DNA of 32,352 nt. It comes from Halomonas halophila (GTDB taxonomy: Bacteria; Pseudomonadota; Gammaproteobacteria; Pseudomonadales; Halomonadaceae). Both the position numbers and the translations under genes were made by a program. Numbering within the stretch: position 1 is the first letter of the stretch; the number at the start of each line of letters is the position of its first letter. Below the pieces are notes generated by a model that saw only the letters and a program-made list of their open reading frames with translations, made no database searches and was not told the DNA's origin. Of this stretch, positions 9,730 to 32,352 are shown one piece after another. The stretch spans positions 1 to 32,352 of the forward strand of contig DJIP01000029.1 of assembly GCA_002433675.1 (NCBI GenBank). Reading direction: 5' to 3'.

Positions 9730-9737
9730 TGATTCAC

Positions 9738-10007: not shown

Positions 10008-10045
10008 GATGGATCTCCTTGTTGCTTGTTGTGTTTTCAACGGTG

Positions 10046-11818
<1,773 letters not shown>

Positions 11819-11892
11819 GTTGGCGAACTCGTGTTGTCGTTGTACTTCCACTCGGAAAACTGGAGCCAATCTCTTCCAGGACATGGCGCTGT

Positions 11893-11940: not shown

Positions 11941-12016
11941 CTTTCCGAACCATTAACGCTTTTATTTCTGAGTATTACTGAACGGAACGAGGCGCTATTG
12001 CCTCAACATGGAAAGA

Positions 12017-14110: not shown

Positions 14111-14175
14111 CTTCTGACTTCTCGCTGATTGTTGCCGCGGCGATGTGTCTCGCCGGTCAGAGTTCCTGACGCACA

Positions 14176-16353: not shown

Positions 16354-16411
16354 GTTCTCGACTCACTTCATCTATTCGGTGGGTGGCGGTGCGACGCGGG
16401 GGCGACGGATC

Positions 16412-16448
16412 GCCGAGTCGCCACGCCGTCTGACGAAGGCGACTCGGC
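16412..16448 (-). other. Intergenic hairpin between SDR and PL17 genes
   Basis: A perfect 11-bp stem (GCCGAGTCGCC at 16412-16422 and GGCGACTCGGC at 16438-16448) closes a 15-nt loop, in the 112-bp space between the SDR stop and the lyase start. No T-run follows on either strand. An mRNA-processing or attenuation role within the operon is more likely than full termination. Confidence 0.55.
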
Positions 16449-16465
16449 CTGGAGGGCGGCTGCCG

Positions 16466-17239: not shown

Positions 17240-17596
17240 GGACTTGCCTCATGGGTTGTGATGGGAGGAGCCTCGGCCGCCATTGCCAATATTTGTCATC
17301 AGGTGTCGTACAGAAATCGCCGAACCCGCACATAGCGTCTATAAATGAGCATTCTGCGGTAGTCGCCGGACGCTCAATTTGTAAATATTTGGATAGCGTT
17401 TCAGCAACGCTAGCAACGATACGAATTTTTTAAAACGCCATTTCATGCATTTTCTAATTATAACCTTATTCCTAAATAGAATTTGTAGAAATTGCGCGGG
17501 TTCGCGTTGTAGGAGATTGCAGACATACGACAAAAGACGTATAACTCGAAACCAAGAGATAAAACCCTATTTCACAATTTCTGGAATCTTGGCCCT
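17240..17596. promoter_or_regulatory. Divergent regulatory region between the uronate operon and its KdgR-like regulator
   Basis: This 357-bp gap is clearly more AT-rich than the surrounding genes, with stretches such as TTTTCTAATTATAACC and AAATTTGTAAATATTTGG-like sequence, as expected for promoters. It must hold the promoters of the leftward SDR-lyase-porin-symporter operon and of the rightward regulator. I cannot assign -35/-10 boxes with confidence. It contains the perfect inverted repeat at 17394-17412 described separately. I find no small gene in it. Confidence 0.6.
17394..17412. promoter_or_regulatory. Candidate operator: perfect 7-bp inverted repeat
   Basis: TAGCGTT and AACGCTA flank a 5-bp TCAGC centre, giving a 19-bp perfect dyad in the middle of the AT-rich divergent promoter region. 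IclR-family regulators such as KdgR bind palindromes of about this length. The half-site differs from the enterobacterial KdgR consensus (GAAA/TTTC core), so if it is the operator, the specificity has shifted. This is the strongest dyad I see in the gap. Confidence 0.4.
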
Positions 17597-18382
17597 ATGG
17601 CTACTGAAGCGAAGGTCGACAACGTCACAGCGGTACTCAAGGTCATGGCGATCCTGGAGGCTCTGGATGAGGGCGGAGAATCCAGCCTGGCGGTGCTGTC
17701 ACAACGCGCCGTGATGTCAAAGAGCACCGCCTACCGCTTTGTGCAGACACTCAAGAACCTGGGCTACGTCGCCCAGAATCCGGAAAGCGAGAAATACCGG
17801 CTGACGATGAAGGTCTTTGCGCTTGGCAGCTCGGCACTCGGCCAGGCCGACCTGATCAAGATGGCCGACCCCGACATGGCGGCACTGTCCGAGCTGACTC
17901 GCGAAGCCGTGCACCTGGGCACCCTGGACACCACCACCGCCGAAGTGATCTACGTGCACAAGTACAACTCCCACTTCAACCTGTGCATGCACACCCGCAT
18001 CGGCGACCGCAGCCCGGCCTACACCAATTCCATCGGCAAGGCCCTGCTGGCCCACCTGCCCCCGGCGCAGCTCGACGCTCTGCTCGCGAACGTCAAGTTC
18101 GAACCACGCACCCAGAACACCGTGACCACCGAGGCGGCGCTGCGCGAAGAGCTGGCCGAGATCGCCGAGAGCGAGCTGTCCGAGGATCTCGAAGAGATGG
18201 ATGAAGGCGTCTGCTGCTTCGCCACCCCGATCTTCGATCACACCGGCCGCGCCATCGCCGCCCTGAGCATGTCGATCCCGAGCATCCGCTACCACCAGGA
18301 CAAGACCTCGGAGTACAAGCGCATCCTGGTCGAGGCCGGTCGCAATATCTCGGGCAACCTGGGCTACCTGGCGCGTCGCTGA
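17597..18382 (+). CDS. kdgR: IclR-family transcriptional regulator, KdgR-like
   Basis: The 261-aa protein has an N-terminal winged helix-turn-helix (~10-75, with VMSKSTAYRFVQTLKNLGYV closely matching E. coli KdgR) and the C-terminal IclR effector domain (~90-255). The effector part shows EAVHLGTLD, IYVHK, NSIGKALLA, EEMDEGVCCFATPIFD and the closing ISGNLGY, all as in KdgR, which senses 2-keto-3-deoxygluconate and represses pectin/uronate genes. Its divergent position beside the SDR/lyase/porin/symporter operon fits autoregulated control of that operon by KDG. The start has only a weak ribosome-binding site (GGAATC). A very strong terminator follows. Orthology to KdgR is likely by sequence; repressor rather than activator action is inferred. 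Confidence 0.85.
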   Translation: MATEAKVDNVTAVLKVMAILEALDEGGESSLAVLSQRAVMSKSTAYRFVQTLKNLGYVAQNPESEKYRLTMKVFALGSSALGQADLIKMADPDMAALSELTREAVHLGTLDTTTAEVIYVHKYNSHFNLCMHTRIGDRSPAYTNSIGKALLAHLPPAQLDALLANVKFEPRTQNTVTTEAALREELAEIAESELSEDLEEMDEGVCCFATPIFDHTGRAIAALSMSIPSIRYHQDKTSEYKRILVEAGRNISGNLGYLARR

Positions 18383-18408
18383 CGCGACCTCCCTGCCCTA
18401 GCGCCTGT

Positions 18409-18452
18409 CACAACGAAAGAAGCCGCCCCATGGGGCGGCTTCTTTCGTTGTG
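18409..18452. terminator. Bidirectional intrinsic terminator, 21-bp perfect stem
   Basis: Arms at 18409-18429 and 18432-18452 are perfectly complementary around a 2-nt centre, with a GCCGCCCC core and outer AAAGAA/TTCTTT segments that supply the T-rich tract on either strand. It sits 26 bp after the KdgR-like stop and 54 bp beyond the stop of the convergent small membrane protein gene, so it can end both transcripts. Confidence 0.9.
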
Positions 18453-18506
18453 GCCTGTCCCTCGCATCGAGGGCAGGTATCGCTACAGGTCAGTGTGACT
18501 GGCGTC

Positions 18507-18635
18507 TCACACCAGGGTGCGGTGGTCCTTTTTCGCCTCACGACGATCGCGGGCAACGGCGCGGCAGATCAGCAGCAGCACGCCCAGGGTCAGCGCAGGC
18601 CAGATCAATACGTAAAAGCCAAAAAGCAGGGTCAT
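18507..18635 (-). CDS. Small single-helix membrane protein, putative symporter small subunit (42 aa)
   Basis: The short ORF starts at 18635 with GGAG 8 nt upstream and lies 54 bp downstream of the symporter gene on the same strand. The product begins MTLLFGFYVLIWPALTLG, continues as one hydrophobic helix to about residue 26, and ends in a basic cytoplasmic tail (ARDRREAKKDH). Tiny proteins of this pattern, with the IWPALTLGVLLLICRA core, are found beside sodium:solute symporters and are annotated as putative transporter small subunits. It probably associates with the symporter encoded just upstream, as MetS does in other sodium-coupled importers, though no such interaction is shown here. It has no cytoplasmic or periplasmic domain of its own. 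Confidence 0.8.
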   Translation of the reverse strand: MTLLFGFYVLIWPALTLGVLLLICRAVARDRREAKKDHRTLV

Positions 18636-18689
18636 GGGGAATCTCCGTCAGTGGGCGCCGCCAGACCGCGGCGCCCGTTGAACAAGGGT

Positions 18690-20390
18690 TCAGCGCTGGG
18701 TCGCGAGTCCTGCCGGGGCGGGCTTGGGCGGACGCTCGTCGGCTACCGTCACGGCCTCGGCGGCGTCATAGTTGCCGACTCGCTCGGCGATGGTGTCGAA
18801 GTCGAACCGCTCGCGGCTGGCGAGGCTCATCACCACGCATACCAGGGTGCTGGTGCCGTAGGCGGTCAACGACGCCAGCAGCACCGTGTATTCCCTGAGG
18901 AAACCGGTGGCGAACACCAGCATGGCGACAAAGGCAGCGAGCCCGGCAATGGCGCCGGCTACCCGACCGAGGAAGCCGAACACCATCAGCGCGATAATGA
19001 TGCCGCCGCCGATGCTGGCCAGGAACTCGAAGCCAAGGCCGGCCACACCGGTCATCGGCAGCCATTCAAAACGCGCCACGCAGAAGGTCACCATGGCCAC
19101 CAGCACCGAGGTGGTGAAGGCCGCGTTGGTGACCCGGTTACAGAAGCAGCTGGCGATCACCGGGAAGACGATGGCCCCCCACAGAGCCCCGACAAAGACC
19201 AGCATCACCAGAATATCCAGCGAGAAGCTGGCGAAGACGATACCGATGGCGGTGGCCACGATCATGGTGATGCGTCCCACCAGCAGCATGCGGCGGGGGT
19301 CGGCCTTGCCTCGGGCGATGTTCTTGCCGTAGACGTCGGCCATCATGATCGCCGACAGCGCCGACAGGTCGGAATCGGCGGTCGAGGACAAAGAGCCGAT
19401 CACCAGAATAAAGAAGGCAGCGATGAACACCGGCGGCAGGTAGCTCGACACCATCTGCGGGATCAGGTTGTTCATGTCTCCGTTGAGCGGCTCGACCCCC
19501 AGGGTCAGCGCCATCAGGCCGATCATGCCAAGGCCGATGACGATGGCCCCGTAACCCACGGTGGCGGTGAGGAAGGTCGGCTTGATGTGGTCCTCGTTCA
19601 CCGCGAACAGGCGCTGGGAGATGGTCTGGTTGCCGATGGCATAGGCCAGCACCGCGACAAAGAAAGGGGCGCCCTGATTGAGGATGGCGTCCATCGAGAA
19701 GAAGTTGGCCTGCTCGGCGGTGAGGTTGTCGAGCCCGGCCACCAGTTCAGTGGGCCCGCCCATGGCGAAGAACACCGCCGGGATGATCACCACGGCAATC
19801 GCCATCAGCGCCACCAGCTGGGCGAAGTCCGTCATCACAGAGGCACGGAAGCCTGACCACAGCGTATACAGCAGCACCCCGACACCGGCGATGATGACAC
19901 CGGCCTGGAACGACAGCGGCGAAAGCACCGATACCAGCGCCCCGGCGGCGGTAAAGTTGACCATCAGGCTGATGATGCTGCCCAGCAGGTTCGATAGCGC
20001 CAGGATCAGCTGGCTGGAGGAGCCATGACGCGCGTGGATCAGCTCGCCCAGGGTGTGAGCGTTGGGCGCCAGCCGACGGAAGCGGCGCCCGAACGGATAG
20101 ATGAACAGGATCATCAGCGCGCCCCACAGCCCGTAGTGGATCGGGCCGGACACACCATAGGTATAGCCGGAGGTGGCGGCGGCGTAGAAGGAGGCGGCCC
20201 AGATCCAGGTGGCCGTCATGCTGGCGGCACCGATGCCGAAGCCGACCCGGTGGTTCGACACCATGAAGGCATCGGCGTCTTCCTTCTTCTTGCGGATGCT
20301 CAGGGTCAGCAGGTAGGTGCCGCCATAAAAAGCGATCATCAACAGGATGACCGTCAGGGTCGAAAACTGGTGGAGGGAGGCGCTATTCAA
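18690..20390 (-). CDS. Sodium:solute symporter (SSS family), third copy
   Basis: The protein has about 13 membrane segments and the SSS features MTATWIWAASFYAAATSGYTYG and SSTADSDLSALSAIMMADVYG, the sodium-site helix 8 region. It belongs to a different SSS branch from the two uronate-locus symporters (no GGGK/RxxWWM motif), closer to acetate/urea-like or uncharacterised carboxylate carriers. I chose a TTG start at 20390 (AAGAG 8 nt upstream, followed directly by the first helix); an ATG at 20444 would add 18 polar residues behind a poor ribosome-binding site. It is convergent with the KdgR-like gene and followed by a 42-aa partner protein. A short-chain or sugar-acid substrate is possible, but the gene may be unrelated to the uronate operon. 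Confidence 0.85.
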   Translation of the reverse strand: MNSASLHQFSTLTVILLMIAFYGGTYLLTLSIRKKKEDADAFMVSNHRVGFGIGAASMTATWIWAASFYAAATSGYTYGVSGPIHYGLWGALMILFIYPFGRRFRRLAPNAHTLGELIHARHGSSSQLILALSNLLGSIISLMVNFTAAGALVSVLSPLSFQAGVIIAGVGVLLYTLWSGFRASVMTDFAQLVALMAIAVVIIPAVFFAMGGPTELVAGLDNLTAEQANFFSMDAILNQGAPFFVAVLAYAIGNQTISQRLFAVNEDHIKPTFLTATVGYGAIVIGLGMIGLMALTLGVEPLNGDMNNLIPQMVSSYLPPVFIAAFFILVIGSLSSTADSDLSALSAIMMADVYGKNIARGKADPRRMLLVGRITMIVATAIGIVFASFSLDILVMLVFVGALWGAIVFPVIASCFCNRVTNAAFTTSVLVAMVTFCVARFEWLPMTGVAGLGFEFLASIGGGIIIALMVFGFLGRVAGAIAGLAAFVAMLVFATGFLREYTVLLASLTAYGTSTLVCVVMSLASRERFDFDTIAERVGNYDAAEAVTVADERPPKPAPAGLATQR

Positions 20391-20444
20391 GGGCAATTCT
20401 CTTGTTGGTGGAACACAGGCGAGCGACGGCTCATGCGAACGCAT

Positions 20445-21455: not shown

Positions 21456-22112
21456 GTGAGAATCCTGTTTATTGAAGATGACGATATCCTCGGAGATGGA
21501 CTCTCCGAGGGGCTATCGCTGCTTGGCCATCAGGTGGACTGGCTGACCCGTGGCGACACCGCGGCCCACGCCCTTGCCGACAACGCCTTTGACGCGGTCA
21601 TCCTCGACCTGTCCCTGCCGGGCTTTACCGGCATGGAGCTGCTCCGACGCTGGCGGGACGAGGGTTTTCGTGAACCGATTCTGGTACTGACCGCCGACGA
21701 GGATACCCGTCGCTGCGTCGAGGCCCTCAACGAGGGGGCCGACGACTACATCACCAAGCCCATCGACCTGGACGAGCTGGACGCTCGCCTCAAGGCGCTG
21801 CTGCGCCGAGCCCGCGGACACGCCGACAATTTGCTGGAATGCGGCGACATCCGTCTCGACCGAAGCGACAGGCTGGCATGGCTCGGTGGCGAACCGCTGG
21901 ACCTCTCGGCCTACGAATACGTGGTACTCGAAAGCCTGCTGGAGCGACCTGGCCGCGTGGTCGCCCGCAGTCAGCTCGAGGCGCGTCTGTATGGCTGGAG
22001 CGATGGTCCCGACAGCAACAGCCTGAGCGTGCTGATCCACAAGCTGCGCAGCAAGCTCGGTGACAACAGGATCGAGACGTTGCGCGGGCTCGGGTATCGG
22101 GTGTCGCCATGA
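21456..22112 (+). CDS. OmpR/PhoB-family response regulator, QseB/PmrA-like
   Basis: The 218-aa protein has a receiver domain (1-118) with acidic pocket E7-D8-D9, phospho-acceptor D51 (ILDLSLPG), T79 and K101 (TKPID). A winged-helix DNA-binding domain follows (~125-218), ending RIETLRGLGYRVSP. The opening MRILFIEDDDILGDGL and VDWLTRG resemble QseB/PmrA regulators, which act with QseC/PmrB kinases in envelope-stress, metal or hormone-like sensing. The start is GTG, embedded in a hairpin. Its stop overlaps the kinase start as ATGA, so the pair is coupled. The location next to the polysaccharide-synthesis operon could mean it controls it, but the convergent arrangement gives no direct evidence. 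Confidence 0.88.
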   Translation: MRILFIEDDDILGDGLSEGLSLLGHQVDWLTRGDTAAHALADNAFDAVILDLSLPGFTGMELLRRWRDEGFREPILVLTADEDTRRCVEALNEGADDYITKPIDLDELDARLKALLRRARGHADNLLECGDIRLDRSDRLAWLGGEPLDLSAYEYVVLESLLERPGRVVARSQLEARLYGWSDGPDSNSLSVLIHKLRSKLGDNRIETLRGLGYRVSP

Positions 22113-23467
22113 GCACTTTCTATACCGGATTACGCAAGCGCGTGGTGCTGCTGTCGAGTCTACTGATCGTGCTGACCTGGATCGCCAGCTCGCTGGCCAC
22201 CCTCTCCGGTATCGAGCAGGCCTCCGACGAACAACTGGCCCAGCGGGCCGAGGCGGTGGCCTGGCTGATGTTGCGTGCCGCCAGTCAGACCGACGAGCCG
22301 GTCACTGGCGACGCCCTGATCCGCCAGCTGGAACAGATCGGCGACAGCCTGGGCGATACCATGGCCTACGAGTTTGGACGCGCCTCTGACGACCAGGCGA
22401 TGCGCTCCTCCTCCTTTCCTGAGCTCTCGGACGAAGCCACCAACGGATTTTCGCGTCACTCGGGCGATGGCGGTGACTGGCGTGTCTTCACGGCGATGAG
22501 CGAGGATCAGTCCTCCTGGTCCCGGGTCGCCTTTACACCGACCGAGCCCAAGCCGCTGACCGAGATGCTGGTGTTGACCCTGAAACAACCCCTGCTGTGG
22601 TGTCTGACCCTGTTTGGCATCCTGGCCGTGGTGCTCCAGAGCCGCTTCTTCACCCCCTTGAAGCGCATAGAAGATGCACTCGCCGAGCAGGACCTGCTCA
22701 ACCCCCGCCCGCTGGCGCTGGACCCGGCGCGGATGCCCCGCGACGTGCGCCCGCTGGTGACCCAGCTCGACCGGATTCTTGACCAGACCAAGAACCTGCT
22801 GGAAGAGCAACGCACCTTCGCCTACGGCGTCGGACATGAGCTGCGCACCCCCCTGGCCGGCTGTCTCAGCCAGGTGCAGGTGGCCCAGCGCATCGAGGAC
22901 CCTTCCCGCCTCAAGCAATCACTCGCCAAGGCCGAGCGCGCCCTGTTGCAGATGACCCAACTGGTGGATCAATTGCTGCTTCTGGCCCGCACCGACCCGT
23001 CTGCACCGCTGGAGAATCCTTCCCGCATCACCCTCAGCGCTCTGGTGCAAGAGAGCATCGAACGGCGCACCGTCACCGCCCAGCGCGAAGGGGTGGTGCT
23101 CAAGTGGCGCGTCGACGGCCCTCATGACTCAGAAATAGAGGCAAAGCCTGAGCTGATCCGTACCCTGCTGACCAACCTGATCGACAACGCCATCCGCTAC
23201 TCGCCCCGCGGTGGAGAGATCCTCACTCGGGTGGACTGCAGCGACGACAGGTGGCTGGTACTCAGCGTGTCCGACCAGGGCTCGGGCATCGATGCCAAAG
23301 AAAGCAACCAGATCTTTTCGCCCTTCTACCAGAGCGAGACCGGCAAGAGCAGCGGGCTGGGCCTGGCCATCGTGCGCGCCATCGTCAAGGCCCACGGTGG
23401 TGATGTCTCCGCCCACCGCAGGCCGATGCTGGGCACCGAGATCCGCGTGGTCCTGCCCCGGGCCTGA
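22109..23467 (+). CDS. Sensor histidine kinase, QseC/PmrB-like
   Basis: The 452-aa inner-membrane kinase has helix 1 at ~11-32, a periplasmic sensor region ~33-158, helix 2 at ~159-177, a short HAMP-like linker (FFTPLKRIEDAL), the HisKA H-box GHELRTPLA with phospho-acceptor H243, the N-box NLIDNAIRYSP (~356-365), G1 DQGSGID and G2 SSGLGLAIV. It phosphorylates the preceding regulator. The sensor domain (about 125 residues) is acidic in parts (EDQSS, DQAM), which would allow cation sensing as in PmrB, but no FeIII ExxE motif stands out. Translation is coupled to the regulator by a 4-bp overlap. It ends 139 bp before the stop of the convergent AlgK-like gene. Confidence 0.88.
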   Translation: MSTFYTGLRKRVVLLSSLLIVLTWIASSLATLSGIEQASDEQLAQRAEAVAWLMLRAASQTDEPVTGDALIRQLEQIGDSLGDTMAYEFGRASDDQAMRSSSFPELSDEATNGFSRHSGDGGDWRVFTAMSEDQSSWSRVAFTPTEPKPLTEMLVLTLKQPLLWCLTLFGILAVVLQSRFFTPLKRIEDALAEQDLLNPRPLALDPARMPRDVRPLVTQLDRILDQTKNLLEEQRTFAYGVGHELRTPLAGCLSQVQVAQRIEDPSRLKQSLAKAERALLQMTQLVDQLLLLARTDPSAPLENPSRITLSALVQESIERRTVTAQREGVVLKWRVDGPHDSEIEAKPELIRTLLTNLIDNAIRYSPRGGEILTRVDCSDDRWLVLSVSDQGSGIDAKESNQIFSPFYQSETGKSSGLGLAIVRAIVKAHGGDVSAHRRPMLGTEIRVVLPRA

Positions 23468-23606
23468 ATCCGACCTTCGGCCCCAGGCCTGAGCGCGACA
23501 CGCTAGAGCTACGTCTTGCGACGTGGGCCTTGGGAGGTGCGCCCTGGGCCTTGTGCTTTCACCCTGCTGGCGGCGCGCTTCGGTATAGGCGCACCGCAGC
23601 GGATAT

Positions 23607-26234
23607 TCAGCTTTCCAGGTTTGGCGCGTCCATCAGCAACTGATGCAGGGTCTCGATGGCCAGATCCCCCTCGCCTTCGAGCACGCCGTCGAGCCACAGC
23701 AGCGCCGCCTGCTGGTTGGCGGTTTCAAGCCCCCGCGACGCCAGGTAGGCCTTGGCCAGCGCCAGTCGCGCCGAGCCGTGGCCCTCGAGCGCCGCGTCGA
23801 CCAGATACTCGGCGCCACGCTCGCGATCCTGCTCGAGCGCCTGGCCTCGCAGCAGCTCACGCCCCAGGGTCGCCTTGGCCCCGGCATGGCCGGATTCGGC
23901 GGCGGTGGTCAGCCAGCGCCGGCCACGCTCGGCGTCCACCGACAGCGGTCCCTCGCCACGCACCAGGGCGGTGCCCAGGATCTTCTGGGCCGAATCGCTG
24001 CCCGCCTCGGCGGCCTGGGTCAGCCAACGGTCGGCCCGCTCGCCATCGGCGCTGACGCCCTGGCCATCGAGAAAGGCACGGCCGATCAACTGGGCCGCGT
24101 AGGCGTTGCCGGCGGCGGCTGCATCGCGCAGCAGCGACAGGCCTCGCTGGCTATCGGCCGCCACGGCTTCTCCTTCCAGATAGGCCTTGCCCAGCGCCAG
24201 TTGGGCCCCCAGGCGGCCGTGTTCGGCGGCGCGTTCGAGCCAGGCGACGCCCTGTCGCGGATTGGCCGCGACGCCGTCTCCTTCGAGCAGGGCGCGTCCA
24301 AGGTCGACCATGGCGTGGCTGTCGCCCGCCTCGGCCGCCTGTCGCCACAGATCCATGGCCCTGGCGGCGTCCCGGGCCACCCCGATGCCCTCCATGTAGA
24401 TGCGGCCCAGCGGCGCCGCGGCGCTGGTGTCGCCAGCGCTCAGCCCACGGGCAAGCCAGGACCGCGCCTGTACCGGATTGCGGGTGACCCCATTGCCCGC
24501 CAGATACGCCTGGCCGAGCTGGGTCATGGCGCCGGCGTGGCCAGCCTCGGCGGCTCGCCTGAGCTGGCGGATATTGCCGGCGTCGCCCTGTGCCAGACGG
24601 GTTCTCATCAAGGCCTCGCTGGCGGAGGTGTGGCCGGCCTGCTCGGCACGTTTAAGCCACTCGGCCGAGCGCGCCAGATCAACGCCGACACCGGTGCCTT
24701 TGCGGTAGGCGCGCCCGAGCACCAGCATGGCGTAGTCGTCGCCTTGCTCGGCGGCTCGCTCGAGTAGCGAGACGCCCTGGCCTCGACTACCGTCCCCCGG
24801 CAGCTGGCCGGTGAGTCGAGCCTGCCCGAGCAGCGTCATGGCGCGCACATCGCCCTGTTCTACCGCCTGCGACAGCAAGCCCTCGGCCCGCGCCGGGTCT
24901 GCGTCCAGCACCTCACCCTCGAGCAGCGCCGCACCCAGGGTGCGGCGTGCCGCCGCGTGATCCTTGTCGATGGCATCCTGCAGCAGAGTCATCGCGCGCA
25001 GCGGGTCCTGGCCGACGTGATGGCCTTCCAGGTAAGCCTTGCCGAGCTGGTAACTCGCCCAGGGGTGGCCAAGCTGCTGGCCCTGGCGCAGGTGCTCAAG
25101 CGCCAGCTGCGGTTGGGCGGGCACCTTGTCCCCGTCCAGGTAGAGGCTCCCGAGCACGGCGTGGGCCAGCGGGTCGCCCTGTTCGGCGGCCCGGTTCAAC
25201 AGCGCCGTGCCTGCGTCCAGATCCCGATCAAGGCCGTTGCCTTCCACCAGGGCGCGTCCCAGCACCACCATGGCGTTGACGTCCCCGGCGGCCACGGCGC
25301 GATCGAGCCAGCGACGGGCAAGCCGCGCATTGCCGTCGCTGGCCCTGAGGTGGTCACGCCCCAGCGCGGTCATCGCCGACACCTCACCGGCGTTTGCCGC
25401 CCGCGACAGCCATTGCCGCCGCCGTTCACTGTTGCCTGGATGCCAGCCACCCTCGGCGTATAGCTTAGCCAGGTCGACCATGGCCGCGGGTTCGCCGGCT
25501 TCGGCCTCGCGCTCAAGGGCCCTGAGCTGGCGCCGACGATAGTCTTCCACCAGCTCCGGCGCCTCTGCCAGCCAGCCTCCCGGCGCGTGGGCCTCGGCCA
25601 GCGCCGCCATGGCCTGGCTGTCGCCGTCGTCGGCCAGTTCCTGGTACAGCGCCCGGGCCCTTGCCGGATCGGCGCGCACGCCGTCTCCCCCTCGGCTGAG
25701 CAGCGCCGCCAGCCGAGCCTTGGCGTCTCGCCCGACGTCTTCCTTGATGGCCTGCTGGAGCAGGTAGTAACCCAGCAGCTCATCGCGTTGCACGCCGTCG
25801 CCTTCCAGGGTCATTCGCGCCAGGTTCAGCGACGCATGGCCACGAATCCAGGAAGGCGTCGCCACTGCCTTGCGATAAAGTTCGGCCGCGCGCTCGGCAT
25901 CGCGCGGCACGCCAAGCCCCTGGTCGTAGATCTTGGCCAGCTCGTAGTAGCCCTGGGGCAGTCCCTGATGGGTCAATTGCTCGAGCGCCCTGATGGCCTG
26001 CTGTGTATCACCGGCGGCCAGTGCGCGGTCGGCCTCCTCGACGCGGTTCTTGTGCATCCACAGAAGGTTGTTGGCCTGGCCACCGTCGAACAGTGTCTGA
26101 TCTTCGGCGGCAAGCTCCCGTGTTCCGTGGGGGCCCAGGTCGCTTGCGGTGGTGACGCAACCGGACAGCAGTAGCGCCATGCCAGCGGCGCTGCCCCACT
26201 GCCTGGCATTGGTGATCAACGTGGGTGTTGTCAT
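23607..26234 (-). CDS. Very large Sel1-repeat lipoprotein, AlgK-like
   Basis: The 875-aa precursor has a lipoprotein signal peptide with lipobox LLSGC (Cys26). About 20 or more consecutive Sel1-like repeats of ~36 residues follow (pattern AMxxLGxAxLEGxGVxxDxxxAxxWLxRAAExG), filling almost the whole chain. AlgK, the outer-membrane Sel1 lipoprotein that helps place the alginate export porin and contacts the periplasmic synthase parts, is about 475 aa, so this is nearly twice as long. Its place as last gene of an Alg8/Alg44-like operon supports an AlgK-type scaffold role. The start overlaps the AlgL-like stop by 4 bp (ATGA). The DNA repeats reflect the protein repeats. An alternative is a general Sel1 (PelB/BcsC-like or HcpA-like) scaffold. 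Confidence 0.8.
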   Translation of the reverse strand: MTTPTLITNARQWGSAAGMALLLSGCVTTASDLGPHGTRELAAEDQTLFDGGQANNLLWMHKNRVEEADRALAAGDTQQAIRALEQLTHQGLPQGYYELAKIYDQGLGVPRDAERAAELYRKAVATPSWIRGHASLNLARMTLEGDGVQRDELLGYYLLQQAIKEDVGRDAKARLAALLSRGGDGVRADPARARALYQELADDGDSQAMAALAEAHAPGGWLAEAPELVEDYRRRQLRALEREAEAGEPAAMVDLAKLYAEGGWHPGNSERRRQWLSRAANAGEVSAMTALGRDHLRASDGNARLARRWLDRAVAAGDVNAMVVLGRALVEGNGLDRDLDAGTALLNRAAEQGDPLAHAVLGSLYLDGDKVPAQPQLALEHLRQGQQLGHPWASYQLGKAYLEGHHVGQDPLRAMTLLQDAIDKDHAAARRTLGAALLEGEVLDADPARAEGLLSQAVEQGDVRAMTLLGQARLTGQLPGDGSRGQGVSLLERAAEQGDDYAMLVLGRAYRKGTGVGVDLARSAEWLKRAEQAGHTSASEALMRTRLAQGDAGNIRQLRRAAEAGHAGAMTQLGQAYLAGNGVTRNPVQARSWLARGLSAGDTSAAAPLGRIYMEGIGVARDAARAMDLWRQAAEAGDSHAMVDLGRALLEGDGVAANPRQGVAWLERAAEHGRLGAQLALGKAYLEGEAVAADSQRGLSLLRDAAAAGNAYAAQLIGRAFLDGQGVSADGERADRWLTQAAEAGSDSAQKILGTALVRGEGPLSVDAERGRRWLTTAAESGHAGAKATLGRELLRGQALEQDRERGAEYLVDAALEGHGSARLALAKAYLASRGLETANQQAALLWLDGVLEGEGDLAIETLHQLLMDAPNLES

Positions 26235-27508
26235 TGTGTGCCTCCGTTATCGGGTATCAGCGAGACGCCATCGGATTCATTCAGTGCCTCCAGGGTCTGC
26301 TGCCTGTTCGATTCGTCCTCGAGCTCCAGGTGTTGCTGGGCTCCCGGTGCCATGAAAAAGAGCGTCACGTAGCCACCAGCGCTGCGGTTATAGATAGGCC
26401 GGCGTTGCTCGAGAAAGTCGGCGATGCGCGGGTCGTCGAAGCGTGACTGGTAGACCTCCATCCACGCGAAGTACTGGGGATCGGTCAGAAAGCCGCGGTA
26501 CTGCTCGCTGGGCGCCATATCCCCCAGCACGCCCGGGTCATCGATGGCACTCATGGTGAAGTCCACGGCGTCATGGATCGTCTTGCCGTCCACCTCGAGC
26601 GAGAAGATGTCGTAGCCCTGGCGGGCGATCACCTGCATGTTGGTGATCAGGTACAGGAGCGCGTAGTTCTGGTAGTGGGTGGCGCGACGTCCCCGCTCCA
26701 TCTCCAGCGGAAAGGCGCCTTGCTCGGTCATGTCATTGAGCGCCGAGTGGATGGCGCTGACGCCGAAGCGAAACAGCTCGTCGTTGTCCACCAGCACACC
26801 CACCGTGCTGGCATACAGCGCCCGCCGGTAAAAGTGGTTGTTGCAGCAGCTGTTGCCGGCATCACCGGGGATCGCCGAATGCTCAAGCGCCAGATCCTCG
26901 AGCCAGCGCTCGACCCTCTGCCTCGGCTCTTCCAGCCCATCCACCTCGGGGCGCACCACTGAGTAGGCCAGCGCCGCGGCGAAGATCATCGATTCGGTGG
27001 CAAACCAGGCCTGGGGTTCCTCGGGCTCGTAATGGAAGCGAGTCAGGGCGTCCTGACTGGCCCAGTGATCGAGATAGCGCACCAGACAATCGGCGTAGTA
27101 GTCATCGCCGGTGGCGACGTAGGTGCCGGCCAGCAGCGACACGCTGTCCTCGAACTCGAACAGCGGCGCCGAGGCTTCGCGCCACTCCTCGGGGCTCGGG
27201 TAGAAGCCGGGGATGCGCATCTGCGAGGTGATGGGCGGCGGCTGCAACAATTGACGACAGCTGACGCCCTCGCCGAGGGAATCCTGTATCTGCGTCAGGA
27301 TGCTGTTGTCCTGCTCTTCCAGCAGCGCCATGCGCGCCTCGACATCGAAGTAGGACGCCTGCGGGTCAGAGACCCGGTAGTCCTCGAGGTCCAGCGCCTG
27401 GCGCTGCTCCAGGGTCAGGGCGCTGGCCACGGGCAGCCAGCCACCCATCAGCAACGCCAGGCCGCCCGCTCGCGCCAGTCGCGGCAGTGTTATCGCTACA
27501 TTCAGCAT
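26231..27508 (-). CDS. AlgL-like periplasmic polyuronate lyase (PL5 family)
   Basis: The 425-aa precursor has a signal peptide (~1-30, cleavage near VASA|LTLE) and the alginate-lyase alpha-toroid fold. Key residues line up with P. aeruginosa AlgL: N224-H225 in NNHFYRRA, and R272 and Y279 in ERGRRATHYQNYAL, with the same 47- and 7-residue spacings as H202, R249 and Y256. The lysine equivalent to K66 is not seen; the aligned position (TSQMR) appears to be Gln96. AlgL clears stray polymer from the periplasm during export. Some PL5 enzymes, such as Smlt1473, also cut poly-glucuronate. AGGAG before the ATG at 27508 decides the start. It lies between the PL14-type lyase and AlgK-like genes, unlike the Pseudomonas order. 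Activity may be altered by the Lys change. Confidence 0.85.
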   Translation of the reverse strand: MLNVAITLPRLARAGGLALLMGGWLPVASALTLEQRQALDLEDYRVSDPQASYFDVEARMALLEEQDNSILTQIQDSLGEGVSCRQLLQPPPITSQMRIPGFYPSPEEWREASAPLFEFEDSVSLLAGTYVATGDDYYADCLVRYLDHWASQDALTRFHYEPEEPQAWFATESMIFAAALAYSVVRPEVDGLEEPRQRVERWLEDLALEHSAIPGDAGNSCCNNHFYRRALYASTVGVLVDNDELFRFGVSAIHSALNDMTEQGAFPLEMERGRRATHYQNYALLYLITNMQVIARQGYDIFSLEVDGKTIHDAVDFTMSAIDDPGVLGDMAPSEQYRGFLTDPQYFAWMEVYQSRFDDPRIADFLEQRRPIYNRSAGGYVTLFFMAPGAQQHLELEDESNRQQTLEALNESDGVSLIPDNGGTQ

Positions 27509-27534
27509 CGTGTCTCCTGGCCGGCAGCGGGGCG

Positions 27535-28422
27535 CTACCGGCGATAAAATTTGAAGTCGGCAAAGTCCAGGTACTGGTCTCGCGGGGTGCGCCAGGACTC
27601 GCCGGTGCCACCGAAGAAGGTGGAGAACATCAAACCGTCGATGTGGGCGTCCTGGACGTCGCGAAACTCCACGCCGGATACCTCGAGTCGAGGCTCGCCG
27701 TCGATCCACACCCGCATCAGGCCATCCTGACGGTCTGGGTCATTAAGACGGATCTCCTGCTCGACGGTGACCCAGTCGCCACTGGCGAAGTGCCAGCTCC
27801 CACGCCCCAGCGAGGCGCCGTAGGCCGTATCCTGATTGACCACGTAGGCGTAGAGCTCACCCTGACCGTCGCGCCGCCACATGAAGCGGGCGCTGAAGCC
27901 GTTGTCACCGGTGGCCTGGGTGCCGCCGCTGGGCGCCTCGCCCCCATAGAGCCCGGGCAGCTTGCCGCCCTTGACGAAGTCGAAGCCGTCGGGAAAGTGC
28001 AGCCGATAGCGCAGACAGGCGTGCTCAGCGCCGGCCAGCGCCTGGGGCGCAGCGTAGAAGCCCGCACCGCCACGTTTACCATCGCTGGGTGAAGAGGTGC
28101 CCGCGGGAAAGAACGCCCGCAACACGGCTCCCGCCTGGGGGTCCTCGACCAGGCTCAGGTTTTCAAGGCCCCAGTCGCGATGGCTACCGAAGCGCTGCTC
28201 GATGATGTCGTCGATCTCCCCCTCGACGTCGTCGAGATCCGGCGCGAACACGGGTTGCAGCCGCTGCGAACAGGGCGTCGCCGAAACGTCGCTGGTGACC
28301 TCCATGGGGTCGGCCCCTGCCTTCGGCGCCAGGGTGGCCAGCGAAAGCCCCAGGGCGAGCCCGACATACAGCGTCGGTCCGGTCTGTGACTGCGTTGTGT
28401 CGATGGTCTTGTCGGGTTGCAT
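27535..28422 (-). CDS. Exported PL14-type polyuronate (alginate/glucuronan) lyase
   Basis: The 295-aa precursor has a hydrophobic export signal (~16-37, TLYVGLALGLSLATLAPKAGA) and a jelly-roll lyase domain. The motif KGGKLPGLYGG with K154, then S177 and R179 (GFSARFMW) and Y191 and Y193 (LYAYV), reproduces the K/S/R/Y/Y active-site set of the PL14 lyase vAL-1 of Chlorella virus, with almost the same spacing. PL14 enzymes act on alginate, and vAL-1 also on glucuronic-acid polymers. PL20 glucuronan lyases share the same fold and are an alternative. A GGGAG ribosome-binding site precedes the ATG. Encoded inside the synthase operon and followed 26 bp later by the PL5 gene, it probably trims or releases polymer in the periplasm or at the surface. 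Confidence 0.8.
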   Translation of the reverse strand: MQPDKTIDTTQSQTGPTLYVGLALGLSLATLAPKAGADPMEVTSDVSATPCSQRLQPVFAPDLDDVEGEIDDIIEQRFGSHRDWGLENLSLVEDPQAGAVLRAFFPAGTSSPSDGKRGGAGFYAAPQALAGAEHACLRYRLHFPDGFDFVKGGKLPGLYGGEAPSGGTQATGDNGFSARFMWRRDGQGELYAYVVNQDTAYGASLGRGSWHFASGDWVTVEQEIRLNDPDRQDGLMRVWIDGEPRLEVSGVEFRDVQDAHIDGLMFSTFFGGTGESWRTPRDQYLDFADFKFYRR

Positions 28423-28517
28423 CGGTCGCTCCCGTCGGCCCGTTCGGGCCCTCGGTGGCGGTCATCACTGTGGCGGGACCTGGTTGGCCCCGCCACAGGG
28501 GCGTCTCGAGCGCTGCG

Positions 28518-29993
28518 CTAGACGTTCTCGCGCACGCTCTCTTCTACCTGCTCATAGAGGTCCTGGGCCTCGTTGAACACGGCGCGGCCGCCCTGCCAGA
28601 CACGCTCTACGGTCTCGCCGATGATCGGGGTCTCGTTGAAGCGCACGTCCACCGGGGTACCGACGCTGCTGGCAGGCAGCGGTTTCTCGGGAATCAACAG
28701 CACGCTAGCCACGTTCTTCTGCTGGCGGACCCAGCCAGGAAAGCCGGCGCGCGGCTCACGCTCGACATCCAGCGCCACGCTGCGCACCCGGGCGTCGATC
28801 ATGCCGGACTCGTGGGGCAGCGAGATAAAGGCCTTCTGGTTGGGCTCGATTCGCTCGATATCGCTCATGTGAACCAGTGCCTCGACCATGATCTCGTCGT
28901 CGCCGGTGCGCACCAGCGTCATGATCCGCTCGCCCTGGTCGATATAGGTGCCGTCGGCGCTGGACAGCGCCCAGGCCACCAGGCAGTTGCAGGGACTGAA
29001 GATCTCGTTCTGGGCCTGCTCGGCCTCGAGCGCGGCCAGGCGCGAGCTCTGATACTCGCGGGCGGTCTCGAACTGGTCGATGCGGGCCCGCGCCACCGCC
29101 GGTGACACCGTGTCATAGCTCACCGAACTACGACCTGCCGGTTTCGACGAGTTGGCCACACTGACCGGGCCGGAGCCTGCGGCCTCAAGGCTCTGCTCCA
29201 GGTTGTCGATCAGCTGGTCGTTGTACTCCTGGGCGGCCTGGGTCAGGATCAGCCCGGACTGCAGCTCGTGGTTCCTGACACTGGTGAGCTTTTCATCGCG
29301 CTCGACGCTATCCCCGGCGCGCAGACCGTGCTCCATCAAGACGCCGGGCCCGGGAGCGCGCACCTCGATACGCGGCGCACTGACCGCGGCAAAGCTCGGC
29401 TCGATCAGCATGAAGTTGCGATACAGTGCCGCCGTCAACACCAGACCGAGCGCCGCGATACCGGCAACCAGCAGCAGATAGCGGCCCCAGCGACGACCGC
29501 TGCCACCTTTGTGGCTGGCGCCGGCACCTGCGGCGCCCTTGCGCTTGCGCGGTGTCTGGGCATTCTCGCTGCCGACCATCGACTGGGGATCGAGATGGCG
29601 GCCGCTCAGACGCGCCCGGACGATGTCCTTCACCAGCGCCAGGTGCTGCGGCTCGATCGAGGTGAATTCCCAGCCGGTCAGCGGCGCTTCGCCCTGGTGG
29701 GCTTCGGTCTTGTGGCGGCACACCGCCGAGAAGGGCACGATGAACTCGCGCCCGGCTTCCTGAATCCGCAGTTCCGCCTGGATCCAGTCGCCGGGGGCGT
29801 GGCGCTGGTCACCTCGCATGGCCATACCGCCCAGGGAAAGATCGATGCCTCGGGCGTGCTCGCCCTGCGGCATCACCACCTCGAAGTCGGGTGAAACGCG
29901 AATATGGTGGCGCTCACTGCGAGCTTCATGGCTGACCTGATCCATCCGGCTCGCGGTGTCGTCACGCCTGTTGCCGTCGTTGTCTGTGGTCAT
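28518..29993 (-). CDS. Alg44-like PilZ / HlyD polymer synthase co-polymerase
   Basis: The 491-aa protein has a cytoplasmic PilZ domain (~22-135) with the complete c-di-GMP motif: R28xxxR32 and D51xS53xxG56. A basic linker, one membrane helix (~171-191) and a periplasmic HlyD/MFP-like part (~195-480) follow. The periplasmic part has a coiled-coil hairpin (~250-330), longer than in Alg44 of P. aeruginosa (389 aa). Alg44 activates Alg8 when c-di-GMP binds and bridges to the export apparatus. The start at 29993 was chosen as the first Met after which the sequence is protein-like; its ribosome-binding site is weak. It follows the Alg8-like gene after 121 bp. The intact motif means c-di-GMP should gate polymer synthesis post-translationally. 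Confidence 0.87.
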   Translation of the reverse strand: MTTDNDGNRRDDTASRMDQVSHEARSERHHIRVSPDFEVVMPQGEHARGIDLSLGGMAMRGDQRHAPGDWIQAELRIQEAGREFIVPFSAVCRHKTEAHQGEAPLTGWEFTSIEPQHLALVKDIVRARLSGRHLDPQSMVGSENAQTPRKRKGAAGAGASHKGGSGRRWGRYLLLVAGIAALGLVLTAALYRNFMLIEPSFAAVSAPRIEVRAPGPGVLMEHGLRAGDSVERDEKLTSVRNHELQSGLILTQAAQEYNDQLIDNLEQSLEAAGSGPVSVANSSKPAGRSSVSYDTVSPAVARARIDQFETAREYQSSRLAALEAEQAQNEIFSPCNCLVAWALSSADGTYIDQGERIMTLVRTGDDEIMVEALVHMSDIERIEPNQKAFISLPHESGMIDARVRSVALDVEREPRAGFPGWVRQQKNVASVLLIPEKPLPASSVGTPVDVRFNETPIIGETVERVWQGGRAVFNEAQDLYEQVEESVRENV

Positions 29994-30114
29994 GGTTGAT
30001 CCGTTGTGCTTGGTGTCCGATGGGCGCGCACTGCCTGTCGAGCAGGTACGCGCTTTGCGTGTTCTGATACCCCGCGTGGGTGGCCGGCACCCTCCGCGAG
30101 CGGCGCGACGGTGG

Positions 30115-32022
30115 CTAGAGCACCTGCACCTCGAGGCGTTCCAGGGCGATCTCCTGCCCGCCCAGGGACAGCGCGCAGCCGGCATCGACCGGGCAGCTCA
30201 CCCTGGCCTCGCGGCTGGCGGTCAGGCCCGGCAACCTGAGTGCCTGGGCGGCGAATTCGGGACTCAACGACAGCACGGTGGCGTCGCCGTCATCGGCGCC
30301 GAGCAGTCGCTCGACGCGCACTTCGTCCTCGCTGCCCAGCTCGCTTGCCAGCTGATGGTCCAGCGCCACCACGCCGGGGGGCAGGCGCAGCGCCGTGCCT
30401 TCCGGTGCCCGCACTACCGCCTGGGACAGCCAACGATTGTCGCTGCCGGCGTCGGCCTGGTCGGCGGCCAGCTGCTCGCTCAGCAGGTTGGCGCTGGGCA
30501 GATCCGGGGGCTTGAGTGCCCCGGTGACCAGCACCAGTACCAGCACCAATGCGCCCATATGAAAACCATGCAGCAGGTGGCCCATGCGCCGTTGGCGACG
30601 TGCCGCCCGGGGGTCCTCGGGCTCGCCGGCGGCGATGCCCTGCCGCGACCAGGCCTGACGGTTGAAGCGAAAGCTGACGTAGGTCTTCAGCAGCGCACCG
30701 AAGATCTGGTTGTAGTAGAGCAGCGGCAGCCACAGCACGCTGAAGCGGCGACGCTGCAGGGCCAGTACCAGGGTCGCGATACCGCGGGTGAACAGGATCC
30801 ACAGCAGGTAGGCGAAGATGAACGAAGGCCGCACGAACAGCGTGACCAGGATCGCCACCGTGGGACCGATCAGGGTGGTCCACATCGACAGCCGCTGATC
30901 GACCAGGCACCACCAGGTGAACCAGCCCATGGGCCTGGGGCCAAGCTGAATGGCCCTGCCACTGGTGCGCAGCATGTTGCCGTACCAGCGACGCATCAGA
31001 TCCGTGGTGGAATGAAAGAAGCGATGACGATCGGGCAGCTCCTCGAAACCACTGACGTAGACGTCCGGCACGTACAGCATCTTCCAGCCGCGCTTGAGCA
31101 GGCAGAACCAGGTGGACTTGTCGTCCCCGGACAGAAACTTGAAGGTGCCGAAGCGCCAGTGGTCGATATGGTCGCTTTCGACCGTCTGGATAAACTCCCG
31201 CTCCACCGCCACATCGGCGCGAAACACGCTGTAGCGACCGGTCAGCACCAGCTGGCGCTCGGAGATCGACATCGAGCTCATCATCAGGTGACGCTGGGCG
31301 TAGCGCAGGTCGTACCACTCACGGGTAGCGTCGCCACCGGTCACCCTGGCGCGGTTGTTGGTGGTGATGGCGCCCAGGTCCGAGCGCATCAGCAGAAATG
31401 GCAGCGAGCGCTCGAGGGTGCCGGGTTCCAGCAGGATGTCCCCGTCCATCGACACCAGCAGCGACGAGGGCCCGGGCATCTGGCGCGAGATGGCACGCAG
31501 TACCTCGGCCATGGCCGAGCGCTTGCCGTCTCCGCGCTGAAACATGTAACGCACCGACACGTTGGCCGGATGGCCGCATACGTCCATCACGTGCTGGATC
31601 ACGTCGATGTCGGTGCGATCGGACACCGAGGCGAAGATGGTAGTCGGCACGCCGTAGTCGGCGCACTCTTGCACCAGCGCCTCGTAGACCGGGAAGCTCA
31701 CCTCCGGCTCGATGCGAAAGGAGGTGCACAGCACGAAGAGCTCGTCCGGCCGCACGGCCTGGGCCGTGGCGTCGGCGTCACGGCGAAGCTGCGGAAAACG
31801 CACTCGGTTGTACCACAGCGAGCGCGCCGCATGGATGAACCACCAGCTGTAGCGCCAGGCACCGATGGCCCCGATGGCAAAGAAGAAGCTCTGCGACTCG
31901 GGGGAAAAGACGTCGTCGGGCAGCTCCAGTACCAGGATCGTCAACAGCGCCAGCAACAACAACAGGGTCGCAAGCTCGGTGACGCGGCTGGCCCTGGAGG
32001 AGGCGAAGGTCGCCTTGCTCAT
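30115..32022 (-). CDS. Alg8-like family-2 glycosyltransferase (polyuronate synthase) with C-terminal extension
   Basis: The 635-aa inner-membrane protein has two N-terminal helices (~14-34, ~44-66), a GT2 domain (~90-350) and at least four C-terminal helices. Catalytic marks are D193/D195 (MDGD), GDDKSTW (D300, D301, K302) and RRWYGN (344-349), all matching Alg8, which polymerises and translocates mannuronate. Similarity runs through YYNQIFGALLKTYVSF and ends near residue 460. A further helix (~485-502) and ~130-residue acidic, probably periplasmic tail are absent from the 494-aa Pseudomonas Alg8. The excellent ribosome-binding site GAGGAGG overlaps the end of the preceding gene. That gene encodes UDP-glucose dehydrogenase, so the donor may be UDP-glucuronate instead of GDP-mannuronate. 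Confidence 0.87.
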   Translation of the reverse strand: MSKATFASSRASRVTELATLLLLLALLTILVLELPDDVFSPESQSFFFAIGAIGAWRYSWWFIHAARSLWYNRVRFPQLRRDADATAQAVRPDELFVLCTSFRIEPEVSFPVYEALVQECADYGVPTTIFASVSDRTDIDVIQHVMDVCGHPANVSVRYMFQRGDGKRSAMAEVLRAISRQMPGPSSLLVSMDGDILLEPGTLERSLPFLLMRSDLGAITTNNRARVTGGDATREWYDLRYAQRHLMMSSMSISERQLVLTGRYSVFRADVAVEREFIQTVESDHIDHWRFGTFKFLSGDDKSTWFCLLKRGWKMLYVPDVYVSGFEELPDRHRFFHSTTDLMRRWYGNMLRTSGRAIQLGPRPMGWFTWWCLVDQRLSMWTTLIGPTVAILVTLFVRPSFIFAYLLWILFTRGIATLVLALQRRRFSVLWLPLLYYNQIFGALLKTYVSFRFNRQAWSRQGIAAGEPEDPRAARRQRRMGHLLHGFHMGALVLVLVLVTGALKPPDLPSANLLSEQLAADQADAGSDNRWLSQAVVRAPEGTALRLPPGVVALDHQLASELGSEDEVRVERLLGADDGDATVLSLSPEFAAQALRLPGLTASREARVSCPVDAGCALSLGGQEIALERLEVQVL

Positions 32023-32031
32023 GCCTCCTCC

Positions 32032-32352
32032 TCAGCCGTTGGCCACGTGGCGGCGGCCGATGGCGTGGTACTGCAGTCCCGCCTCGCGCACTCGGCTCGG
32101 CTCGAACAGGTTGCGTCCATCGATGATCACCGGACGATTCAAGCGCTCGCGGATGGTGGCAAACTCGAAGCCACGAAAGCTCTTCCACTCGGTGCAGATC
32201 ACCAGGGCATCGGCTCCCTCGAGCGCCTGTTCGGCGGAGTCGACCAGCGCCAGGTCGTCACGCTCGCCATACAGACGCTGGCATTCCGTCTGGGCCTCGG
32301 GGTCGTAGGCGCGAACTCTGGCGCCGACCTCCCACAGCGACTCCATCAGCAC
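32032..32352 (-). CDS. ugd: UDP-glucose 6-dehydrogenase, C-terminal part (5' end beyond window)
   Basis: The visible 106 residues are the C-terminal UDP-binding domain of the nucleotide-sugar dehydrogenase family. RAYDPEA, the ALEGADALVICTEWKSF block, VIIDGRNLF and YHAIGR are hallmarks of UDP-glucose dehydrogenases of the TuaD/Ugd type. The GDP-mannose dehydrogenase AlgD has a different C-terminus (VLVLGNGDE, VDLVGFMP in Pseudomonas). The enzyme oxidises UDP-glucose to UDP-glucuronate with two NAD+. Its stop lies 9 bp before the Alg8-like start, inside that gene's ribosome-binding site region, so the two are surely co-transcribed. This suggests that UDP-GlcA is the polymer precursor. The catalytic cysteine lies outside the window, so only the family call rests on sequence. 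Confidence 0.85.
   Translation of the reverse strand: MLMESLWEVGARVRAYDPEAQTECQRLYGERDDLALVDSAEQALEGADALVICTEWKSFRGFEFATIRERLNRPVIIDGRNLFEPSRVREAGLQYHAIGRRHVANG

Follow-up and report, generated by a model that had tools for sequence, protein, structure and literature searches.

A stretch of 32,352 nucleotides from Halomonas halophila (the window in what follows; bases 1-32352 of contig C13, which has 43269 bases in an assembly of 4.28 Mb that is 87% complete) carries at its right end a six-gene operon related to the alginate synthesis machinery. The genes are transcribed from the minus strand in the order ugd, alg8, alg44, PL14, PL5 and an algK-like Sel1 gene. The 3' part of ugd, coding the UDP-binding domain of a UDP-glucose 6-dehydrogenase (PF03720 UDPG_MGDP_dh_C, 8e-20), occupies 32032..32352 with its stop at 32032, and the gene reaches 33685. 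It is followed by genes for an Alg8-like processive glycosyltransferase family 2 (GT2) synthase of 635 residues (30115..32022; Glyco_tranf_2_3, 1e-28), an Alg44-like co-polymerase with a PilZ domain and an HlyD-type periplasmic part (28518..29993, in a reading frame that opens at 30185; HlyD_3 5e-7, PilZ 7e-6), a PL14 polysaccharide lyase with an export signal recognised by eye (27535..28422; PF21294 Polysacc_lyase_14, 2e-65), a PL5 (AlgL-like) lyase whose signal peptide was likewise recognised by eye (26231..27508, frame opening at 27709; PF05426 Alginate_lyase, 9e-37) and an AlgK-like Sel1-repeat protein of 875 residues with a lipobox, LSGC, also identified by eye (23607..26234; Sel1, 4e-74). 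Genes ugd and alg8 are spaced by 9 bp and the two lyase genes by 26 bp, PL5 and algK overlap by 4 bp, and the other two joints measure about 100 bp. An initial annotation made from the letters alone had named the Alg8-, Alg44-, AlgL- and AlgK-like genes; all six frames lie where it placed them, the Pfam domains agree and the 9 bp spacing that it gave is confirmed. A run of 317 N (32353-32669) starts exactly at the window edge, inside ugd. Extension to the right, as the annotation had advised, recovered the front of the dehydrogenase beyond this gap, up to base 33685, with the N-terminal domain at C13:33128-33685 (PF03721, 1.7e-63); both terminal parts are readable and about 105 residues between them fall in the gap. 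Upstream of ugd on C13 follow an MFS transporter, then a TonB receptor and an iron-ABC set (these two identified by eye from translations), and no alg gene was seen there among the translations, read by eye. A search of 23300-32352 for sigma-70 promoter-like sites found none, a result that is uninformative.

With PF03721 the genome gives two dehydrogenases at high score, 215 and 209 bits, encoded by ugd on C13 and by another ugd on contig C187, and three weak matches (at most 29.4 bits). The C187 protein is full-length. Its best PDB matches are the UDP-glucose dehydrogenase entries 2y0c-e (552-556 bits; 2y0e 556), which we take to be BceC of Burkholderia, compared with 205 bits for AlgD (1mfz) and 164 bits for the putative UDP-ManNAc dehydrogenase 4r16. 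Of the 20 PDB entries listed over AlgD, one has no stated sugar and all others are of the UDP-glucose type, while three distant UDP-glucose dehydrogenases score below it (3phl, 144 bits, and its variant; 1dli, 111 bits, and 1dlj; 7kws). The N-terminal 339 residues of the C13 protein share 77% identity with C187 Ugd and 36-37% with three AlgD proteins. Judged by sequence similarity, the operon dehydrogenase is of the UDP-glucose type and not AlgD, as first annotated; grouping with GDP-mannose dehydrogenases, named there as a refuting outcome, did not occur for the full-length paralogue.

Contig C187 (18871 bases) carries a second, paralogous operon in which all six genes recur in identical order (ugd, alg8, alg44, PL14, PL5 with an N run inside, AlgK), followed by an aldo/keto reductase gene. 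Its alg8 is 66% identical to that of C13. The presence of two copies, each with its ugd, counts for UDP-glucuronate as the precursor. Divergent from this ugd-alg8 operon, at 17261-18871 (locus L009), lies a gene for a repeat protein (Big_9, Ig/cadherin-like; a LapA-type adhesin by eye), an arrangement that suggests co-regulated matrix genes.

The gene neighbourhood is conserved. A scan for the synthase in one genome per species (84,980 species) gave 375 relatives, of which the best 80 were kept as loci; by record title 74 are from Halomonadaceae and six from alphaproteobacteria (Caenispirillum, Thalassobaculum, a Geminicoccaceae, a Rhodobacteraceae and two unclassified). Ugd scores over AlgD in 74 of the 80 loci, no dehydrogenase is present in six and AlgD is ahead in none. 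The other genes are found at similar frequencies (alg44 in 78 loci, PL14 in 76, PL5 in 76, AlgK in 72), and the incomplete loci, eight in all, are mostly short or stop close to the synthase. The usual order is ugd-alg8-alg44-PL14-PL5-algK, with ugd placed between alg44 and PL14 in Caenispirillum and Thalassobaculum, and tandem extra copies of PL5, PL14 and AlgK in some loci of Billgrantia, Modicisalibacter, Salinicola and Halomonas. All six genes are present in H. smyrnensis AAD6 (locus L084). Among 201 sampled Halomonadaceae genomes 69 have the synthase, three of them twice. The ugd-alg8-alg44-PL14 set thus recurs as predicted, and its conservation in other species excludes a chance association. 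Searches for AlgA, AlgG, AlgI and AlgJ (Loktanella queries and a second AlgA) found none in the 80 loci at E 1e-5, a threshold that divergent copies could escape; the same queries do find these genes in algD-type loci, and their absence had been remarked in the initial annotation.

The operon could nevertheless make ordinary alginate (poly-mannuronate), with GDP-mannuronate coming from an unlinked AlgD and ugd being a bystander. The alginate-like architecture and lyases closest to alginate lyases are in line with this, and in an assembly that is 87% complete a gene could be missing. A profile from ten aligned AlgD proteins, assigned by gene context, was run against 47 sequence sets: the own genome, 44 of the genomes that carry the 80 loci, and two algD-operon plasmids. 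Nothing exceeded 315 bits in the own genome or the 44 relatives, compared with 719 and 731 bits for the two plasmids, which contributed to the profile. Both matches in the own genome correspond to its ugd genes, and the highest one among these 45 genomes (G381) maps to the operon ugd of locus L036. With single AlgD queries in tblastn, AlgD genes outside the profile score 385-481 bits and ugd-type loci 210-239 bits, so that a true AlgD should have stood out. An algD elsewhere in the genome, the other outcome that had been named as refuting, was therefore not encountered and supply by an unlinked AlgD was rejected. The bystander role is further contradicted by the retention of ugd beside the synthase in 74/80 loci, in alphaproteobacteria with another type of ugd, by the 0/80 count for AlgA, AlgG, AlgI and AlgJ, and by a supported branch that separates the synthase from all 18 algD-linked ones (see below). 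Alginate as the product is largely refuted and we hold it to be very improbable.

The algD-linked relatives used in that comparison are identified by gene context. Plasmids of Salipiger, Loktanella, Jannaschia and Tateyamaria code for a nucleotide-sugar dehydrogenase, the synthase, an Alg44-like protein, a sugar-phosphate nucleotidyltransferase and a beta-helix/NosD protein; an MBOAT protein is found in two of these four operons and an "alginate O-acetyltransferase AlgF" is annotated in Loktanella. A related synthase occurs in 14 plasmid records, nine of Rhizobium and, in this set restricted to plasmids, none of Sinorhizobium; the three Rhizobium plasmids examined have algD, not ugd. Ten of 369 sampled gammaproteobacterial genomes, the own genome included, have the synthase (nine loci: algD 3, neither dehydrogenase 6), as do 23 of 385 alphaproteobacterial ones, Caenispirillum included (23 loci in 22 genomes: algD 8, ugd 1, neither 14). 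Three gammaproteobacterial genomes (L110, L111, L112) code for long Alg8-like proteins (~880-892 residues) with a PilZ-/HlyD-like neighbour recognised by eye and no dehydrogenase within the stretch examined. At L106 10679-13069 the frame beside the Alg8-like gene has, by eye, a start resembling a nucleotide-sugar dehydrogenase over a few residues and is perhaps a dehydrogenase remnant.

The operon synthase and the algD-linked ones share 35-41% identity. Synthases linked to ugd and to algD separate in both trees that were built (48 and 56 rows), the first of which took in 24 of the 80 loci; of the rows of the first, the second leaves out six database proteins of unknown context and loci L012, L016, L054, L061, L072, L088 and L112, and of a later set it leaves out L165 (which scores like L164) and L180 (a partial second match of G650). 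In the 56-row tree the 17 ugd and 18 algD labels need a single change, the 21 unlabelled rows not being counted, the algD rows sit in a 27-row side with support 99/94, and shuffled labels were equally clustered in 0/500 trials. When eight unlabelled rows, all without a linked dehydrogenase, are taken out, the separating branch has support 99/97 and the split is found in 995/1000 bootstrap trees. No Pseudomonas protein is among the best 120 of 2750 matches to an algD-linked synthase, so the trees hold no experimentally studied Alg8 and their algD side consists of context-identified relatives; with this scope, the separate position expected for the synthase was recovered. Accessory genes follow the same division between ugd-type and algD-type loci (PL14 16/17 and 0/18, PL5 16/17 and 5/18, AlgK 16/17 and 8/18; AlgA 0/17 and 12/18, AlgI 0/17 and 6/18, AlgG 0/17 and 4/18, AlgJ-like 0/17 and 6/18, these four at 1e-6), as scored with queries from Halomonas and two of the 18 algD loci and on related rows that are not independent, so that Fisher values for these counts do not stand for independent events. 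The Halomonas-type operon of the alphaproteobacterium Caenispirillum salinarum (L044 10001-20498) has an alphaproteobacterial-type ugd behind alg44. Its synthase is nested inside Halomonadaceae and Halomonas-like at 63%; its ugd is 44% identical (range 42-49%) to those of Halomonadaceae and 49-54% to other alphaproteobacterial ones. This is the single independent case in the comparison: a Halomonas-like synthase with a different, elsewhere-placed ugd implies that the linkage arose or was renewed separately, and the sequences point to an apparent horizontal transfer with dehydrogenase replacement.

The Alg8-like protein has the motifs GDGKR 164, DGD 193, LTGR 260, GDD 299 and RRWYGN 344, and a C-terminal beta-rich domain (residues ~505-635, window 30115-30510) with two mostly conserved cysteines. 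This domain is shorter in the Vreelandella protein P0092 and others. Four alignment columns split the two types of synthase: F161/N223/L257/V259 in the ugd-linked rows and R/E/V/T in the algD-linked ones (numbering of the operon synthase, which itself has Q at 257). R/E/V/T is found in 18/18 algD-linked rows; of the 17 ugd-linked rows all have F161 and V259, and 16 have N223 and L257. In a further alignment, A3, composed of 63 proteins chosen by the analyst among 240 listed, F-N-[LV]-V is present in 31/34 proteins found from the operon synthase and R-E-V-T in 27/29 found from an algD-linked one. Each position is inside, or at most three residues in sequence from, a conserved motif (GDGKR 164, TTNN 220, LTGR 260), and by comparison with GT2 enzymes in general these motifs would line the active site. 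The four positions were selected post hoc on 17 and 18 sequences, and their effect cannot be told apart from that of the single split in the tree, which leaves them as candidate donor determinants only. Synthases lacking a nearby dehydrogenase sometimes carry other combinations, such as LNVC and RQLA. Loci L167, L168, L170 and L171 have neither signature and no linked dehydrogenase (LNVC, RQLA, RQLS), and may represent further donor specificities.

The Alg44-like protein, in which PilZ and HlyD_3 both pass the Pfam cut-off, carries RHHIR and DLSLGG, which correspond to the c-di-GMP (cyclic di-GMP) motifs RxxxR and DxSxxG of PilZ. The AlgK-like protein reaches 103.5 bits with the AlgK model NF038194, whose equivalog cut-off is 700 bits, and is classed as a related Sel1 protein only. 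The combination of a processive membrane GT2, a PilZ receptor and a periplasmic tetratricopeptide/Sel1 protein is that predicted for a synthase-dependent, c-di-GMP-regulated system. The absence of AlgE noted initially stands for the own genome, in which PF13372 has no match, and is weak as evidence: the family exceeds its cut-off in 4/44 relatives (one strongly, 239 bits) and in 0/2 control plasmids with algD-type operons, which makes its lack non-diagnostic.

In the PL14 protein the KLPG, FSARFMW and ELYAY segments are kept. Its nearest solved relative is the alginate lyase 5gmt (134 bits), ahead of 6kcw (44 bits) and vAL-1 (3a0n, 30 bits). The PL14 gene is present as annotated, while its value as a pointer to glucuronate is reduced, even though the family does contain a glucuronate lyase, vAL-1. 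The PL5 protein keeps CCNNH, EMER and HYQNY, the first and last of which align with A1-III. Its closest solved relatives are the A1-III alginate lyase (1hv6, 177 bits) and then 7fhu (102 bits), which we take to be Smlt1473; within the PL5/A1-III alignment entry 4f13 has F at the Y position, presumably the catalytic Tyr246. It scores below all NCBIfam equivalog cut-offs and is assigned to the AlgL type by PF05426 and the A1-III match. Uronates with 1,4 linkage are substrates of both lyase families, and a PL5 member, Smlt1473, is active on poly-glucuronate as reported in passages of PMC11784403. By family membership the two lyases fit a 1,4-linked polyuronate, be it of mannuronate or of glucuronate.

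The operon represents a separate and widespread lineage among synthase systems of the alginate type, supplied with UDP-glucuronate. The initial proposal that the alginate polymerisation/c-di-GMP module has been re-used for a glucuronate-based exopolysaccharide is supported by the dehydrogenase type, the survey and the phylogeny, with the polymer itself deduced from them. We give a probability of roughly 0.68 to an exopolysaccharide system of alginate architecture, synthase-dependent and using UDP-glucuronate as donor. That the operon synthase takes this donor is very probable from the gene and sequence comparisons; that the product is a homopolymer with beta-1,4 linkage is a reasonable expectation, and poly-glucuronate is the simplest candidate product. 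Ugd would oxidise UDP-glucose to UDP-glucuronate, which the Alg8-like GT2 would polymerise while threading the chain across the inner membrane. We infer that c-di-GMP turns the synthase on via the Alg44-like PilZ/HlyD protein and that PL14 and PL5 shorten or remove polymer in the periplasm, the part that AlgL plays in the alginate system; the Sel1 lipoprotein would lead the chain through the periplasm to an outer-membrane exit. Because epimerase and acetylase genes are not in the operon, the product would be unmodified poly-glucuronate, most simply beta-1,4-glucuronan. Conversion before or after polymerisation to a polygalacturonate, an iduronate-containing or a xylose polymer could follow from the established role of UDP-glucuronate as a branch point, and epimerases could be unlinked; no epimerase or decarboxylase family recurs within the operon among the clusters of reading frames from the 80 loci, and polygalacturonate is to our knowledge not a substrate of PL5 or PL14, which counts against it. 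Such conversion appears most improbable.

Several points weigh against poly-glucuronate synthesis. C187 Ugd reaches no NCBIfam equivalog cut-off, the best being the UDP-glucose enzyme TuaD with 487 bits compared with 700 (for three algD-type proteins scanned, the best-scoring equivalog is AglM), and UDP-glucose dehydrogenases also supply capsules and lipopolysaccharide. The ugd linkage is not universal, as eight synthases that stand on the ugd side of the reduced tree have no dehydrogenase within the stretch examined. Resemblance to hyaluronan synthases was rejected as evidence for the donor, an AlgD-type control model being equally similar. No outer-membrane pore family was recognised by eye among the recurrent clusters of reading frames of the 80 loci. 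Together with the presence of two lyases in each operon, and of further copies in several species, this would suit an expressed operon with a periplasmic polymer, or a degenerate system, in which the lyases are the point of the locus; the GKR, GDDKS and RW segments are however intact in 17/17 ugd-linked synthases and an AlgK-like gene is kept in 72/80 loci, and we give this explanation hardly any credence. Both operon lyases are closest to alginate-type solved enzymes, and the presence of lyases leaves room for a mixed polymer. In a glucuronate-containing copolymer a single GT2 would alternate UDP-glucuronate with a housekeeping UDP-sugar (glucose or N-acetylglucosamine), like hyaluronan synthase, and would need no second precursor gene; we regard this as unlikely. 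Finally, the compositions given for two Halomonas exopolysaccharides in passages of PMC6962145 are mixed, with glucuronate at trace level only in P39a and at 27.9% in TG39.

Elsewhere in the window lies a region for uronate or oligo-uronate degradation (571-20444). It comprises genes for a mandelate-racemase-type enzyme (571-1713), a Zn-alcohol dehydrogenase (1756-2775), a short-chain dehydrogenase/reductase, KduD-like by eye (2772-3548), a 2-hydroxyacid dehydrogenase (3561-4523), a KdgM-type porin (9022-9843), two tandem PL17 lyases (14212-12017, with a 42% match at 12143-13990, and 16353-14176, whose nearest solved relatives are all alginate lyases), a second short-chain dehydrogenase/reductase (16466-17239) and an IclR regulator (17597-18382), together with SSF symporters. 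A link of the operon with these genes (the two PL17, the KdgM porin, the symporters) is not supported. PL17 is present in 5/201 Halomonadaceae genomes, namely the own genome and four of one genus (g278) that are outside the 69 synthase-positive ones; none was found in the 80 loci, whose sequence reaches at most some 10 kb from the synthase and in many cases stops a few kb beyond algK. Two further features of the window are a gene for a protein with OsmC and YcaO domains (4753-7527) and, convergent with the last gene of the operon, a pair at 21456-23467 that codes for a histidine kinase (QseC is its best match in NCBIfam, below cut-off) and a response regulator of the OmpR type.

Glucuronan is an anionic polymer known from very few bacteria. 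Its biosynthesis genes and loci were stated to be unknown in a 2023 paper on a wild producer (PMC10180729). The locus described here is, with somewhat better than even confidence, the first proposed for a bacterial glucuronan and defines an ancient sister branch of the alginate synthases in which the donor changed between GDP-mannuronate and UDP-glucuronate, marked by R/E/V/T versus F/N/L-V/V, and which is present in about one third of sampled Halomonadaceae and in scattered alphaproteobacteria. With a compact operon of six genes in Halomonas, which can be cultivated, the question of the glucuronan genes becomes directly testable and a production chassis is on offer. The sister synthases form a natural pair with seemingly different donors, and the few positions that distinguish them are candidates for what sets the choice of nucleotide and sugar in processive GT2 enzymes. 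The "Alg8" and alginate lyase of H. smyrnensis are listed with no further interpretation in the passages seen of PMC4523562; such Halomonas annotations, strain AAD6 being an example, would need to be re-read as not alginate. No description of a ugd-alg8-alg44 operon was found in the open-licence PMC literature (titles, abstract starts and passages), preprints and most subscription papers lying outside that scope.

The closest known relative is the alginate system, whose operon order is algD-alg8-alg44-K-E-G-X-L-I-J-F-A. As in the operons of the Salipiger, Loktanella, Jannaschia and Tateyamaria plasmids, an Alg8-type GT2 and an Alg44-like protein stand behind a nucleotide-sugar dehydrogenase, and the Sel1/tetratricopeptide lipoprotein and PL5 lyase of the textbook system are also in the Halomonas operon. 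The differences are a UDP-glucose instead of a GDP-mannose dehydrogenase, the added PL14, another gene order, AlgA, AlgG and AlgI/J that were not found, and a synthase in a separate branch with F/N/L/V in place of R/E/V/T. The hyaluronan synthases (7sp6-9, 8snc/e, 8smm/n/p, 9yq2-5) resemble the modelled operon synthase in GT2 fold, in processive membrane architecture and in the predicted use of UDP-glucuronate; the operon synthase has no PDB sequence match at E 0.001, the AlgD-type control is equally similar in fold, and we know of no PilZ partner of hyaluronan synthases. The Pseudomonas acidic polysaccharide locus Pap shares the acidic product and a BceC-like UDP-glucose dehydrogenase, PapA, but follows a lipid-carrier, polymerase/flippase-type pathway as modelled by its authors, and the Pap proteins listed in the passages seen include neither Alg8 nor Alg44 (PMC7716237). 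Smlt1473 of Stenotrophomonas maltophilia is, according to passages of PMC11784403, a poly-glucuronate-active member of the PL5 family to which the operon lyase also belongs; the latter scores 102 bits to 7fhu compared with 177 to A1-III, and the passages searched of two papers, among them PMC8511899, in which operon terms had no match, give no operon context for Smlt1473. The nearest product is the glucuronan that Sinorhizobium meliloti M5N1CS and Peteryoungia rosettiformans make (PMC10180729), a beta-1,4-linked glucuronic acid polymer, partly O-acetylated in P. rosettiformans, unlike the unmodified but otherwise equivalent polymer proposed for the Halomonas operon.

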